From Strigamia acuminata (Eukaryota; Arthropoda; Chilopoda; Geophilomorpha; Linotaeniidae): a DNA stretch of 64,000 nt. Below the pieces are notes generated by a model that saw only the letters and a list, made by a program, of their open reading frames with translations, was not told the origin of the DNA and made no database searches. The translations under genes were made by a program, and so were the position numbers. Shown piece after piece: positions 1,024 through 12,585 of the stretch (the first letter of the stretch is position 1; the number at the start of each line of letters is the position of its first letter). The DNA is taken from contig OX442324.1 of assembly GCA_949358305.1 (NCBI GenBank), positions 6,329,575 to 6,393,574 of the forward strand, in the 5' to 3' direction.

Positions 1024-3432
1024 TTATAAATTACTGGAAACTGATTTATTAATCTCAAGAAAATCCTCAACAGCCAGATAAATCGGAGACTTCGCTTCGT
1101 CGGGACAACACACTTCCAAACTCCAACGATTCAATTTGGGATCAAACGTGAACACTTTCCCGTTCTCATCGACCGACCAGAACCCGCCGCCCTGGTGCTG
1201 CTGGCGAGCGACTATGTTAACCAAAGTGCCCGGACTCGCTCCATCCGCTTTGAACGTGCGCCACGAATTTCGTATCGGATTGTAGCAATAAATTCTCATC
1301 GGCTGATCTCGGCGGACCAAAATGACCACATTGTGTTGCGCCACGGCCAACGTGTCGACATTGGCGAACCCCTCCGGTAGCGGCTCAATCATCTCCCACG
1401 CCGTCGACGGTCGTCTCAAGTCCAACATTTCACATTTGTTCGTGTGGCCGGCAAAAACGTAGAGTCTTTTCTGCAGAACAGCACCACTGATTTTATACCT
1501 CCTTTCGTTCATGCGCGGCAACGTCATAAACCAGCCTTCGCTCGGGTGAAACACTTCGACCACGTCCAAAGCTTTATTCCATCTATTTTTCCCGCCCAAT
1601 AAGTAGAGCAAACGTCCGTGCGACACGATTCCGACGCACGAGCGCGGGCTTCGTAAATGCGGCCCCGAACGCAACGTTTGAGTGTCCACATCAAACGCGT
1701 AGACCATGCTCAGCTTGGTTCTGCTCGCCGAATCTTCGCCACCTATTAAATACAGCGTGGATTCGTGGTAAGTGACCGCCATGTCGTTGTACGACGCAAT
1801 GCCGAGTCTGTGGGCAGCCGACCACAGATGACTGTCTAAACGACAGCAGTGCACCAGCAGTCGGTTGTCCAGACTGCAACTCAGCAGAAACAACACGGGT
1901 CGGTTTCTCTGGCCCAGCATTTCTTCCATGTTGCTGCTGGTTTCGGAAATGAATTGAATTTCGCTCGGGAATTCGGACAGTTGTGTGGCGGATTGACTGC
2001 GTTGAGGCAGCGGTTCACGATGGCTGGGCGAAATGCTGCGCGAGTGGTGCCGTTTTCGCAGTTTCTTCTCGCTTTTCGTCTTGGCGGACGTTCCCTGCGA
2101 GATGTTGCTGAACGAATTGGCTAGTCCTCGGGGGATGTTTGGTCGCGAGTCTCCCAAATCTTCGTTTTCGTAAATGGTCGAGGGTTTGGCAAAAATTTGG
2201 TTCTGAGAAAATCCCAAACCTGTTGTTCCTCCTCCTCCTCCTCCTCCTCCGCCTTGTTTCGATGCGTCCCGAACGGCCGTTTTGCCCACCATGTGCGTCG
2301 CGAGTTCGCAGATTTTAGGCGATCGACCCAGGAGCGATGTCTTGCCGAGAATTTTCACTAAATGAACCCACGATATTTTGCCTTTCTCCATTATGGCAAT
2401 TAATTCTTCGAAGCAGTGGTCTCTGTTTGTCACGTCGAAACCCACCCAATTGCAAATGCCCAACAACATAGTTTTCTAGGAAATTAAGAATAAAAATAAA
2501 TTAAACATTAATATGTATATATATATACTGAATATACTTTCTTACTATCATTATAGGATCGTCTATCATGGCCGACACTTGATACGCAACAGCAGACAAG
2601 CATCTATAATTGAGTTGTAAGTGCGAATTTTTAGCAACTACATCTTTGAGTTGCTGCACGATGTGCTTCACTACGACTTCCCGAACTTCGCCCACTTCGA
2701 ACTTATAAGCCCATTCCCACAGCTGATTCGCGTGGAGTAGTCTGCTACCATCGTACAGTAGTAGTTGCTCCGTGAAATACGCGGGCGCGCCTGTCACTTG
2801 AAGATATTGGCCCGCCATTATTGTTCGCAGAATTTTGTCCGAGTCGCTGCTGTGCAAGTTTTGGCTCATAGACCCTAATACACCAGACACAAACTGGAAT
2901 ATAAATACTTAACATTTTAACTAACGATGTATACCTTTGTACATGTACGTAAGCAACAGATCCATGGTCTCTTCGTCGACATATTCGACTTCTAGAGTAC
3001 TAAAAGGCTGAATTTGGCTATCTTTTAGAAGAACGTCTTCTAAAAAGGGACTACAACAAGCTAAAACGAGTCTGTGAGCTGATAATCTTTTCTCATTACA
3101 CAACAACACCATGTCGATATATCGACGATTTCTGCGAAAACTATTCATTTTACTCGATTCTTCTACGAGTCTTATGACATTCACTTCTTTTTCTGCAGTA
3201 ATTTCGGAAGGATCGTCCGTTTCCAGAGTGGGCATGGTATTCGCTGGATGCATTTGTGGCTGGTCTGATTCATTATAGGAAGGCAAAGAAGCAGACTTCT
3301 GACTATGTAAAGTACGCGTTTATGAGTTTAATTTAAAATCCTAATGATTCGGTGTACACATGACACTCGTTTGAATTTAAGTACTACCAGTTGAACGCTT
3401 TACCTGTGCTTTTCACTTTTTCTTTCACTCAT
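1024..3432 (-). CDS. BTB-BACK-Kelch protein, probable Cullin-3 substrate adaptor
   Basis: Coding exons read 3432-3404, 3302-2935, about 2907 or 2893 to 2546, and 2475-1024. The start is ATG 3432-3430 (MSERKSEKH), joined in phase to the BTB exon. BTB hallmarks are YIDMVLLCNEKRLSAHRLVL. The next exon and the start of the last one form the BACK region. The last exon carries a poly-Gly linker (from a TCC run at 2229-2250) and about five to six Kelch blades (YLIGGEDSAS, LYLLGGKNRW, LYVFAGHTNK). Family members recruit substrates to Cullin-3 ubiquitin ligases; the substrate cannot be told here. The exon 2 to exon 3 join is uncertain. Donor 2934 leaves phase 1, whereas the good acceptor at 2895-2894 gives phase 0; a weaker AG just upstream (exon from 2907) restores frame. 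Estimated length is about 736 residues. I cannot assign it to one KLHL subfamily. Confidence 0.85.
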
Positions 3433-3621: not shown

Positions 3622-5133
3622 CTAATAGTCTTTAACACCGATCGAATTGTAATAATCCAAGGCGCTTTTTTCGTCAAACCACGGCATAGTCCCATCGCCT
3701 TTCATCTTACGACGCTTGTTTACGATTTCTTTCGGAACCCGTTTCAAATCGTACGCCAGACCAAGTGCTGCCCATATGTCAATGAAAAACGCCGTTATGT
3801 TTCTATGCCAACCCCATTCGGAGGCTGCATAGTCCCATGGAAACGTGTGGTGGTAATTATGAAAGCCTTCGCCTAAGCTCAAAATAGAAACCATCCCATT
3901 TTCTGCCGGATTGATTGACCTAAGTTACGGGAAAACAAATGTTCGCCACGATTCATTGCGATTGTAAACTTTCAATTTACTCACCGATCGTAGGGTTTGT
4001 CACCCCAAAGGTGCGCGGCGCTGTTAACTAACCACGTGCCGTGCAGAAACAAGCAATAACGCAATAAAGAACACACGAAAAAGCCATTCGTAAAAGATTC
4101 ATCCCAAAGAGCATACGGCACGAAGGTTGGCAATATGAAACACATTAACAGAACCAGCGGTAAATAGAATCTAGCGATAAAATAAGAGTTTTTTTTAAAA
4201 ATAATAATAATAATTTGTTATTTTTTAATTATAACGCCTACGTGTGTTGAATTCTAACAACTGGGTCAGCTAGCAAATCACTGACGTCAATCGTTTGTCC
4301 CTTTTCCATCACATCGGGATGTTTGCGAGAAATAAGCCAACCCATGTGTGAAAAGAAAAATCCTCTTTTTGCATTGTGAGGATCAGCATTTGTCTCGGAA
4401 AACTTGTGATGAACTCTGTGATCGCGACTCCATTCGAATATGCTGTTCTGTAAAATCCATCGTATCATATATATGAGACATGAGTAATGTAGGGCAATAT
4501 CATCATAAAACGGGACAATTTCCTGTTATTCCATTGTTTGCTTATACGTCAACAAAGGGTAATTGATTGGACAAGTTTTGTATCTCAGGAACGGGGAAGT
4601 GCACACAGTGCGCAAACTTTTTTTTTTATAAGAGGGAGGAGCATAATAAATTAACAAAGAAAGGATTTCTACCGTGTTATTTTCATCTAACATGACAAAA
4701 AGTAAAAATATAAAATAAAATAAAATCTTACTTGGAATGCAAGAGCATTAGCAAACGCCAAGTAAATTCGCAATGGTAAAGTAGCGCTGTAAGAACGATG
4801 AGTCCAAAGTCTATGCGCACCAGCAGTTATTCCTTTAAAACTCAATATCATAACAATATATGCTAGAATAAAAAAAAATTAGATTTATAATTTACTCATA
4901 AATCCACCCAAAAGTTGATGTTGAATTGTAAGACACTTACCCCACATAATCGTTAAAAGTTGTACGCGGAAGAGCAGAAGATATATGCCATAAAAACTGC
5001 CAGCATGCAAGTAAACGAATAAAATAACATTTCTCCAAACCCACTGTAAAGGAACTAATTCTTCTTCTTTGCTGCTGTTCACCCGATTTCGTACATCAGT
5101 TTCCACTGACTGGTCTTCTGCTTTAGGCGCCAT
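3622..5133 (-). CDS. Acyl-CoA delta-9 desaturase (stearoyl-CoA desaturase type)
   Basis: Five coding exons, all phases consistent: 5133-4941, 4862-4732, 4447-4242, 4170-3985, 3919-3622, giving 337 residues. The enzyme inserts the first cis double bond in acyl-CoA, using a di-iron centre in the ER membrane with cytochrome b5 as electron donor. All three histidine boxes are present: HRLWTH (exon 2), HRVHH (exon 3) and HNYHH (exon 5). The extra conserved NSAAHLWG stretch is in exon 4. Four membrane segments can be seen, two before the first box and two in exon 4. The start chosen is the first ATG of the open frame (MAPKAEDQ). Length fits the family (about 330-360). Insects and crustaceans carry several paralogs, so chain-length preference cannot be predicted. 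Confidence 0.95.
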
Positions 5134-6114: not shown

Positions 6115-9100
6115 TTAAATTACAGTTACATTAGATGATAATATATTACTTGCAGCCGTTTCCGGTGTACGATAACACGAAACCTTACCACAACGTGCCA
6201 AATGGCGAGCTAGTTTGAATAAAATTAAATTACATTTTTAAAAAAAAATATAAATATAAATATAAACAGACTTACCCATTGAGTTTCCCATCGATTCGGA
6301 AAATCCACAAACGCAATACATCCGGTATGGTAAATGGACAGGATTGTAAATAGATTCTCGTTTCCGAGCTTTAGAATGCCAAATTATCATGTGATTAGCA
6401 AACGCTTTCCCACAACTCGTAACGTAATGACACTGAGAACAACACCAACTCTTCCTATTTTTTTTACAAAAAAAAAAAAAAAAAAAAATCATCAATTTAC
6501 ATAATATTCTATCGGAAATGAGATTAACCTACATAAAATGACTCGGTAATTCCATTTCGGTTTTGCACTCCAAGCACTGCAATCCCAAGAGCCGCGGAGA
6601 AGATATGAAACTGTATTTCGAAGTCATTAATTTCGGCTGTACATTCTGAACGACCGTGGCCGCCGTCTTTTTACGCCTGCCACGAAAGGTCACTCTCGTC
6701 CTCAGAGGCGGTTCTTTCATATACAGTTTACCCTTGTTATCATCATTCGTAACGAATTTGAAAACACCTGCAAACAGCGCCATTTAAAATCGAACCACAC
6801 ACTTGTTTTGAATGCACGTAGTACCTGGCTTGCCTTTGTAGGTCACATGATCTTGTAATCTATGCAGAGTCATTTCATTCTTCCCCACGAACATTAGACA
6901 ACACGCCGTACATTTACGATTTAAGCTTTTCGTTTGATGTTTGTAAATGTGAGTCCAGAAATTATTGATCAAACCGATTTGTCGAACCGACGAAAACTTC
7001 ACCGAGAACACCTTCAAACAGTAGTGGCATTGGATGTAGTTGGTATCGTTATGTGCCTAACGAAAACAAAAAATTAAATTAATATTCACCATTTTTGGTC
7101 AATTAAGACCCATAATTACCTGATGAAAATGATCTATGAGCGTTTTATACATGGAACATCGATACTTGCACACTTCGCACGAATATGGCATCTCCGCCGC
7201 CGTGTGCGTCGACACCATGTGTTTAATGACCGATTCCTTATAATGAAATGCCTGATCGCAGATTCGACACTTGAGTGAACTTGAATTATTTAAATGAACC
7301 TATAAAAAAAATAATTAAAAAAATTTACAAACACTTACAAAGTGTCTTAATTGATTTGCCCTACATCTTCTATGTGACACTGCATGACATAAGGTGTGTC
7401 GAATTCACGGAAACAATGCTTGCACTGAGACACGTCACTCAAATCCATATTCCGTTGTTTGATGCTTTCAATATGAGCCGACAGATGTTTCATCATTTTT
7501 ATATTGTTATCGAGCAGCTTTTTGCATACGCAACACTGCGAAAAAAAAAATATTCAAATGAATAAAATGCAAACCCACAAAACGCAAATAAAAGCACCTT
7601 AAATTTATATTGCGGTTGCACCCCGGTCAAAGCAGGCTTCGGTTGCGTTATTCCACTCTTCCAAGCGTAATAATAATCCTCGAGCAAAATGGGCACTTTA
7701 GACAATTCGACCGGTTTTTGTTCTTGCGGAAGTTGAATTTTGCAAATAACGGATGGAGGTTTTACGGGTTTACTTAACTCGGCACGAATAATCGAACTTG
7801 AGGGCTTGGGTAATATCGGTTGCGGAACCGACTGCACGCTTTCCGACAGCACGCTCACCACCGGCATCTTCAACGGCTGACTATTGGTTTTGATCGAAGT
7901 CGTGCCTACGTTTGAAAAATAAAGCGCGTTATTGCAATTTTAAAAAAAAATAAAAATAAATTAGCAGACCTGTCCCATAATGCTGCTTGATATGCAAAAG
8001 AATATTATTAAATGCATTGTACGGATTCGTCCCAAATTTTTCCCTCCACATGAGTTCGTGCAGAAACGACTGAATCGTCTCCATTTGCAACTGTTCAATA
8101 ACATTGCCAAACATCGGGATTACACGTTCTTTCAAATAGGCCTTCGCATTCAGTATTCCACTTCCCATGTCGTTGGTTGTAATTAACTTGTGCCCTCCGC
8201 TATTCAAAAAGAACACCGACAGTTTGACACTTTTGTCGGTATTTATAATGGAATAATCGTCGACGTAAGTGTTGACAAACTCCTCGGTGGATGAATCGCT
8301 TTTGTTCGTGAAAGCTCGTAAAGCCACCATTCCCGTCGTCCGTTCGTAAATGCAGCCGAAAAACAATTGATTTGCGTGAATACAAGTGTCCTTGAGAAGC
8401 ATGAGGCTCACTTCGACCGTGTGCTTATCCGATCCGCCCAATTTCATCAAACTTTTCACTTTACTGCCGCAAATTGCGCGTAGTAATGAATACACCGATC
8501 TCAAAAAACATGCCGAGACTTTTGTCTCTTGCAACACTTTTTGAACGTCTTCGTTGCAAGCCCAGTAATATATTATGCGCAACATGGTGAGAAGACCGTA
8601 GCCCAATGATTCGAAGAAGCTCAAGTGTTGGATCGGTAATGTTCGCATGCATTTGCCGCATTGCCACTTGTAGCCGCCGGAATTGTCGTTCGATTCGCGG
8701 CTGTCGAATACCAGTTGCAGCTTAACGTCGCGATGAACGACACATTTTTGCTCGATGTGGAATAATCCGTGTTCAAACATCCACTTAACCAAATCTGGTG
8801 ATTTCAGCTTGATCACTTCGTTCATAGTTTTATCTAATAATGATCAAATTAGTGAGTTGAATTCATTTAATTCATTTAATAAATAACGAAAAATCAAACT
8901 TTTACCCAATTCAACTTTTTTACACTGAACAACGGCCAAACTAGCGAGTCTTTGCGGCACCGATTTGATGGTCAACGATGGGTACTGACTGGGAAGTCGC
9001 TGTTGATTCTCGAACTGACTCAAATTAGCTTCTAGATTATTCGCATCCACCTCTCTCTCAGTGACAGTTGTTACCTATGTATAATCTCAGCTTTAATTTA

Positions 9101-9986
9101 CCACAGACAAAACAACATCTCACATCGCTTCAATACTTTTTTCGAATATGTCGCGTGAATTGACAAGGGTGTAATAGTGCTCGAGACAGTCACAGGTGCG
9201 GAAGCTTTAGGCACCAAAGATGTTTGTAAAGGTACAAAGGCAATAGTTTGCTGGAAATAAAATAATTCAATTAAAATTAATTAAAAAATGACAAAAATAA
9301 GCAAAACTTACCGTAGTTGGCAACATAGCAGTTGCTGGTCTAGCCTTCGCAATAACAGCTAGAAAGAAAAAGATTAATCCAACAATTTTATTATTATTAC
9401 TAGTATAAATTACCTTGATTGTCGATGGGCATGGTTCCTATTAGAAGGCCCGTTCTTGCATCGAGAAGCAGTTTGTAGCTTGCCGGCTGAACTACGGTTG
9501 ATTGCGGTTGAGCAGCAACCTAAACAACAATTTATTGAAACCAAAAGCTGGCACAAACGTGAAAATCATTCGATAACTTACTGGCATTGTATTTTGTATT
9601 ATAAGTTGCGACTGAGGAACCGATAAGTTTAATTTGGGCAACTCAACAACTGACGTGATTGGTTGCACCGATGATACGGTTGACGTATTGCTTTGGGTTG
9701 TGTACTTTAATGTATTTAATGCAGACGACGCAGAAACAACGGCAGAATTAGCTGGTATTTGCAAATGAGCATTATCACTTTCGATAATTTTAACTTTTTT
9801 GGATTTGAGAACGGCTATGTTTTGCAGGGCTTTGTTGTACTCTTTCGCAGCCCGGTCGTGCGCTTCTATTTGCGCTGGTGATAAATCATCTTCTTCGCAG
9901 GCCAAAAATAATTCTATGCCGTCTTCACCGCCGTGTGCGGCCTTATGGTGCTTTCCATCCCGTAATTTACGGTCAACTTTAGCCAT
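6115..9986 (-). CDS. POGZ/ZNF280-type zinc-finger protein with embedded Merlin/IS1595-like transposase domain
   Basis: Thirteen coding exons, all in phase: 9986-9582, 9519-9414, 9358-9312, 9250-9137, 9074-8906, 8833-7970, 7905-7598, 7535-7365, 7299-7120, 7056-6825, 6767-6533, 6454-6276, 6209-6115; 1034 residues. The N-terminal 280 residues are low-complexity (Q, T, V, P rich) with a YKLLLDARTGLLIG motif. Residues about 281-568 resemble ISXO2/Merlin transposases. Residues 672-900 are a C2H2 array: CCVCKKLL, CKHCFREFDTPYVMQCH, CRICDQAFHYK, CEVCKYRCSMYKTLIDHFHQ, IQCHYCLKVF, CTACCLMF, then PPLRTRVTFRGRRKK. This order and spacing match the finger block shared by POGZ and the ZNF280 family (established knowledge). 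A further finger pair lies in exons 12-13. It probably acts as a nuclear chromatin or DNA-binding factor; its targets are unknown. It is divergent from Rab11 with about 1 kb between starts. Confidence 0.85.
7970..8833 (-). other. Exon encoding a degenerate Merlin/IS1595 (ISXO2-like) DDE transposase domain
   Basis: This 864-bp exon is the largest of the zinc-finger gene and codes for residues 281-568. Family landmarks in order: a zinc-knuckle-like YKWQCGKC (about 336-342) followed by the FFES and IIYYWA segments; HTVEVS (about 418-423); LFFGCIYERTTG (about 437-448); IINTDKS (about 476-482); and the C-terminal FLHELMWREKFG block (about 537-548), the clearest Merlin/ISXO2 signature. In active enzymes the HTVEVS position reads V-x-I-D-E and an HTN-x-x-E precedes the last block. 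Here the first Asp is Ser and the last Glu position reads Gly, while the middle Asp (TDKS) may be kept. Splice phases on both sides (1 and 1) join it in frame to its neighbours. No terminal inverted repeats were noticed around it. Confidence 0.75.

Positions 9987-10979: not shown

Positions 10980-12585
<1,606 letters not shown>

Follow-up and report, generated by a model that had tools for sequence, protein, structure and literature searches.

A gene in the genome of the centipede Strigamia acuminata joins POGZ-type zinc fingers to a domain related to the transposases of the Merlin/IS1595 (ISXO2-like) family. It occupies positions 6115 to 9986, on the minus strand, of a 64,000-nucleotide stretch of contig OX442324.1 (assembly GCA_949358305.1, positions 6,329,575 to 6,393,574; hereafter the window), and all coordinates given below are those of the window. 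We read it, with a probability of about 0.8, as an arthropod POGZ-type zinc-finger chromatin protein in which a nearly complete Merlin transposase was captured before the scorpion-insect split and has been kept as a non-catalytic binding module. The parts of this reading carry different weight: the Merlin origin of the domain and the loss of its catalysis are close to certain, and a role as binding module, argued by analogy, appears reasonably likely. Sequence comparisons establish that the domain is homologous to Merlin along nearly the entire transposase, and three arthropod proteins have their parts arranged in the same order.

The gene and its Merlin-like exon

From an ATG at 9986 to a stop codon ending at 6115, 13 exons join in one frame to encode 1034 amino acids, and all 12 introns (55-78 bp each) are of the GT-AG type. 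Exon 6 (8833-7970, 864 bp, residues about 282-568), which encodes the nearly full-length Merlin-like domain, is open throughout and both enters and leaves in phase 1. This bears out a first-pass annotation, made from the DNA letters, which had the exon reading in phase with both of its neighbours. The open frame contains YKWQCGKC, HTVEVS, LFFGCIYERTTG, INTDKS and FLHELMWREKFG in that order; the same annotation had recognized here the motif order of Merlin transposases, and the motifs do align in order with Merlins.

A Pfam match to DDE_Tnp_IS1595 (PF12762), which had been proposed as a check on the exon, was not obtained: nothing was reported for exon 6 even at E 10, and the family cut-off was not reached. 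A sequence search of the PDB with the exon produced a single hit, attributable to chance (E 0.49). When the exon was compared pairwise with the open frames surrounding the Merlin matches of its own genome, no significant similarity emerged (best phmmer E 0.24). This fits the lack of a Pfam match and prompted the search for orthologues.

A protein search with the finger region identified three relatives at E <= 1e-10 among 431 candidates, from the scorpion Centruroides sculpturatus (P0113, 41% identity), the nemertean Tubulanus polymorphus (P0114, 38%) and the wasp Bracon brevicornis (P0115, 28%), all three of which contain the zf-POGZ finger. These sequences are database gene models, built independently of the window, and not transcripts. 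In BLASTP searches of a database consisting of these three proteins, the scorpion protein aligned with residues 26-1029 of the window protein (E 4e-141), and exon 6 matched scorpion residues 286-555 (E 7e-33, 31%) and wasp residues 294-603 (E 2e-25, 26%) and nothing in the nemertean protein. Thus, both arthropod relatives possess the domain and the single non-arthropod lacks it. In the scorpion and the wasp it is placed as in the window protein, after the N-terminal region and ahead of the fingers. This agrees with the earlier claim that the domain lies upstream of the fingers, for which a search of related genomes for the same order had been suggested as a check. Scans of viral contigs and genome contigs yielded no further orthologues.

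The Merlin origin was then addressed by profile comparison, which covered the Merlin family only among DDE families. Using one PF12762-matching frame of the centipede genome as query, 112 Merlin-type proteins were gathered; hhalign used all 112, a smaller alignment 37 and the residue alignment and tree 35, the two subsets being hand-picked, mostly near full length, without a fixed rule. The three orthologous domains (centipede, scorpion and wasp) matched the 112 Merlins with a probability of 99.6%, an E value of 5.3e-25 and a score of 173.8 over 268 columns, running in order from the N-terminal zinc ribbon through the helices and the core to the C-terminal helices. By comparison, the best of 100 column shuffles scored 33.1, with a best probability of 25.4%, and probabilities stayed under 1% when the alignment was reversed or when the N-terminal or finger regions took the place of the domain. 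An alignment that included the whole scorpion and wasp proteins matched the 37 Merlins at E 8.6e-24, and each sequence taken singly matched along its length (window 96.6%, scorpion 98.6%, wasp 98.4%). Pfam did not find PF12762 in the scorpion protein; the wasp protein has a sub-threshold match (E 0.031, 14.7 bits against a cut-off of 27). Pairwise identity of the domain to the 35 Merlins is 15-22%, and in a tree with them the three domains form one clade (support 100/100). The Merlin/IS1595 origin put forward in the first-pass annotation is thereby upheld.

In its own genome (237.5 Mb), exon 6 gave two candidates, both scored, of which the one match was the exon itself. Other matches to the whole protein fell only in the finger region (residues 656-844, <=34.3 bits, 44 of 385 candidates scored), and among eight zf-POGZ matches at E <= 1 only that of the window exceeded the cut-off, the next reaching 25.3 bits against 27 (L022). 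Because of these three results, the gene is probably single copy. The same genome holds at least 19 PF12762 matches (L002-L020), all above the family cut-off; Merlin elements have been active in this lineage. Fifteen of these 19 lie on one contig (C1) and four contain internal stops.

Fold, catalytic positions and conservation

When Merlin rows were added to the input, AlphaFold2 returned a confident model of the domain (pLDDT 88.1). Numbering residues within the exon (K1 = 8831-8829), the predicted RNase-H-like core spans residues 138-247 (8091-8420); it resembles the cores of integrase and IstA (VIA-align) and has the integrase-type alpha-beta arrangement of an RNase-H-like DDE fold. Foldseek TM-scores of this model are low, about 0.2-0.3 when normalized to the length of the query; most of the chains aligned to it are whole integrases. 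Ahead of the core, three model helices (residues 80-91, 96-103 and 107-128) form a stretch at residues 80-128 (8448-8594) that may be read as a helix-turn-helix (HTH).

The catalytic triad has been lost in part. The first catalytic Asp position, Asp in 97% of the 35 Merlins, is Ser in the window protein (S142, 8406-8408); the second, Asp in all 35, is still Asp (D199, 8235-8237); and the Glu position, Glu in 94%, aligns with Lys (K230, 8142-8144), the alignment being looser around this position. The three positions read S-D-K in the window, G-N-T in the scorpion and G-D-M in the wasp. None of the three proteins thus retains the first Asp or the Glu, and the second Asp, kept in the window and the wasp, is replaced by Asn in the scorpion. 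The catalytic loss announced earlier therefore stands, including the Ser at the first position; the Gly given for the Glu position does not, since the aligned residue is Lys.

Outside the core, the zinc-ribbon-like positions C30-x2-H33 and C58-x2-C61 (8649-8744) correspond to cysteines that are present in all 35 Merlins at positions 30 and 58. All four positions are Cys or His in the window and the scorpion; the wasp keeps C30 and C61, with Gln aligned at position 33 and Ser at position 58. All 37 Merlins of the 37-row alignment have two invariant N-terminal cysteines in a CxxC/H arrangement, and Merlins in general may carry a divergent zinc ribbon.

Among the orthologues, conservation of the domain peaks in the C-terminal helices (residues 248-285, 7977-8090), where 15 of 38 residues are identical in the three proteins compared with 45 of 289 across the exon-6 region; the corresponding P value of 9e-5 is descriptive, because the segment limits were chosen after the alignment had been seen. 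Among columns conserved in at least 94% of the 35 Merlins, six of 24 within residues 138-235 and five of six elsewhere are kept in at least two orthologues, a difference for which a Fisher test on these 30 columns gives P 0.016, again with limits picked after the alignment had been inspected. The concentration of invariant residues in the C-terminal helices is the only data indicating a particular surface.

Over its length (95-99% aligned), the domain is 28-32% identical to its scorpion and wasp counterparts. Scorpions and insects diverged more than 500 million years ago. Loss of the catalytic pattern while the other fold landmarks and the reading frame stayed over this distance is what would be expected of a selected host domain.

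Exons 1-5 (9986-9582, 9519-9414, 9358-9312, 9250-9137 and 9074-8906) encode an N-terminal region, residues 1-280, in which no Pfam family was detected at E <= 1; it aligns over 78-86% of its length with 32% identity to the scorpion and 27% to the wasp, and 21 of 279 residues are identical across all three. Exon 7 (7598-7905) encodes a linker with 19-21% identity to the scorpion and wasp, which carries a YYY motif (LLEDYYYAW) ahead of the fingers; the motif reads LEDYYYA in the window, LDEYYYA in the scorpion, LDEYYYG in the nemertean and LHEYFYA in the wasp. Exons 8-13 encode the finger block (residues 672-1012, 6184-7535) with six C2H2-type spacings by pattern, and residues 642-1012 are 43% identical to the scorpion and 31% to the wasp. 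Within this block, the zf-POGZ double finger (PF25429; residues 928-967, 6385-6582, split by an intron) scores 51.3 bits against a cut-off of 27 (E 1.6e-13). It is the sole family that Pfam reported for the full-length protein at E <= 1, with no pogo DDE domain detected, and the fingers, used as query against PDB sequences, retrieved generic C2H2 proteins.

Two of the relatives have features of their own. The scorpion protein contains an exact 228-residue tandem repeat (824-1051 and 1051-1278) that includes the zf-POGZ finger and is more likely an artefact of assembly or gene model than a real duplication. The nemertean protein begins with a THAP domain (PF05485, residues 9-101, E 1.3e-13, 51.9 bits), which is absent from the listing of the whole-protein Pfam scan. 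The neighbours of the gene in the window are a BTB protein (2921-3319, minus strand), a fatty-acid-desaturase-like exon (4238-4525, minus strand, E 0.00013, under the curated cut-off) and a Ras-family GTPase (11539-12242, plus strand).

Alternative explanations and proposed role

Because the scorpion and the wasp have the same fusion, the domain appears to be a long-standing, retained component of the gene and not debris. The domesticated state claimed by the first-pass annotation gains support from these relatives, from the profile match with its controls, from the fold obtained with Merlin rows and from the single-clade tree. That the capture was a single event is suggested by the shared position in one gene, independently of the tree; its dating to before the scorpion-insect split presumes vertical descent and correct gene models in both foreign species.

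Nevertheless, several observations weigh against this interpretation. Without Merlin rows, the AlphaFold2 model of the three orthologues was poor (pLDDT 43.9) and found no Foldseek match at E <= 0.001; the fold therefore rests on the added rows, and the structural check suggested at the outset succeeded with them and failed without them. None of the 1071 candidates in a protein search with the domain alone reached E <= 1, and the domain is known in only two other arthropods, in both from gene models. Between species, the N-terminal region (32 and 27%) roughly equals the domain in similarity, so that the domain does not stand out in conservation from the rest of the protein, and the tree carries a long-branch warning, since long branches meet in it. 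A pattern search of the window protein found no PxVxL motif, so that HP1 contact gains no support from it, and the binding role itself is inferred by analogy. Furthermore, the region 7850-8960 holds four pairs of inverted repeats, the longest distant one of which (8005-8028 / 8859-8882, 19 of 24 matching, AT-rich) was reached in none of 100 dinucleotide simulations.

This pair, together with the Merlin matches elsewhere in the genome, would suit a recent Merlin insertion or pseudogene that the model wrongly joined to the finger gene. The pair is more than chance and may be a remnant. It is not taken for transposon ends, given its AT-richness and the position of its arms, one within the exon, in sequence coding for the conserved C-terminal helices, and the other in the preceding intron, so that the domain is not enclosed. 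An insertion is also difficult to reconcile with an exon open for 864 bp with GT-AG borders in phase 1-1, with the lack of any close copy in the genome or significant similarity to its Merlin frames, and with the same fusion in the scorpion and wasp models, unless both are wrong alike; we consider it very improbable. The idea that the domain shares only the general RNase-H fold and does not derive from Merlin draws on the low pairwise identity to Merlins and on the exon having no Pfam match. It is equally improbable in view of the 268-column profile match, which proceeds in order through ribbon, helices, core and C-terminal helices, and of the sub-threshold PF12762 match of the wasp.

A domesticated enzyme that still cuts or joins DNA is conceivable in so far as the second Asp is kept in the window and the wasp and some domesticated transposases retain activity, according to the available text of PMC9976928. 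The first Asp and the Glu are gone from all three proteins, along with much of the Merlin core pattern, which makes this the least credible of the alternatives. The gene might instead act in genome defence, with its Merlin-derived part recognizing Merlin ends or transposase and its fingers recruiting silencing heterochromatin. Merlin copies persist in its own genome, the zinc-ribbon positions are filled in the window and the scorpion, and related factors work with HP1 proteins (PMC9078007, available part); yet conservation is best in the C-terminal helices and not in the presumed DNA-binding half, and we regard such a role as unlikely, if less so than the other alternatives. In the non-catalytic binding module that we prefer, the zinc-ribbon/HTH half would still touch DNA or nucleosomes beside the fingers, and the inactive RNase-H-like core with the strongly conserved C-terminal helices would offer a dimerization or partner-binding surface. 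The protein might then recruit or position a chromatin complex, of the HP1 type by analogy with POGZ and Drosophila Row, without cutting DNA.

Comparison with known systems

Homology of the domain to the Merlin/IS1595 transposases extends over nearly their full length. The window gene differs from them in that the first Asp and the Glu are missing, in its fusion to a finger gene and in showing no sign of mobility, with a single genome match. Domestication or chimera formation of Merlin has been proposed before: the candidate domestications in PMC8101967 are protist copies, and a Merlin-WD40 protein of C. brenneri is attributed by its authors to degeneration, misassembly or a candidate functional chimera. 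A conserved zinc-finger fusion is not mentioned for these candidates in the available text of that paper, which cites host-transposase fusions as a known kind. Our literature searches, whose scope left out most subscription papers, found no description of a Merlin domain combined with POGZ-type fingers. If our reading is correct, the centipede gene represents a deeply conserved animal Merlin domestication, where the Merlin survey (PMC8101967) gives only candidates in its available text. Other conserved chromatin factors may likewise conceal unrecognized transposase folds.

Among finger proteins, Drosophila Row, compared here by literature description, is a zinc-finger protein named as the POGZ ortholog (PMC10969489). 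It is a relative of woc and acts with HP1c and Woc, Row and Woc being needed for HP1c on chromatin (PMC9078007).

POGZ itself shares with the window gene the zf-POGZ family and the joining of a transposase to zinc fingers, and its transposition was not observed in HeLa cells (PMC9976928, available text). It is tied to autism (PMC7386202, PMC9976928) and, according to a title cited in PMC9976928, modulates HP1 on mitotic chromosomes. The two differ in the transposase: POGZ has a DDE domain of the pogo (Passer) type whose triad is conserved, and its fingers lie near the N-terminus (PMC7386202), whereas the window gene has a Merlin transposase ahead of its fingers, with two catalytic residues lost. 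The pogo capture of POGZ has been placed in lobe-finned fish (PMC9976928), and that of a gene group including POGZ in 'lobe-finned fish or Amphibia' (PMC7386202). Since vertebrate POGZ gained its unrelated pogo domain in this way, the finger scaffold would have acquired transposases at least twice, in agreement with what the first-pass annotation had supposed.

The nemertean relative extends the comparison, having a related finger block with zf-POGZ and an N-terminal THAP domain in place of any Merlin domain. THAP shares ancestry with the P-element transposase. Vertebrates with pogo, arthropods with Merlin and a nemertean with THAP thus make three lineages in which this finger scaffold sits with a different transposon-related domain. 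The odds seem to us even that the POGZ finger scaffold has repeatedly taken up such domains, and that the arthropod fusion, possibly including Row, has persisted as a chromatin factor for more than 500 million years, overlooked because its domain lies below Pfam detection. Set beside the pogo capture of POGZ, the Merlin capture described here would be a second, independent acquisition by this scaffold, and it raises the question of why the scaffold keeps acquiring transposases.

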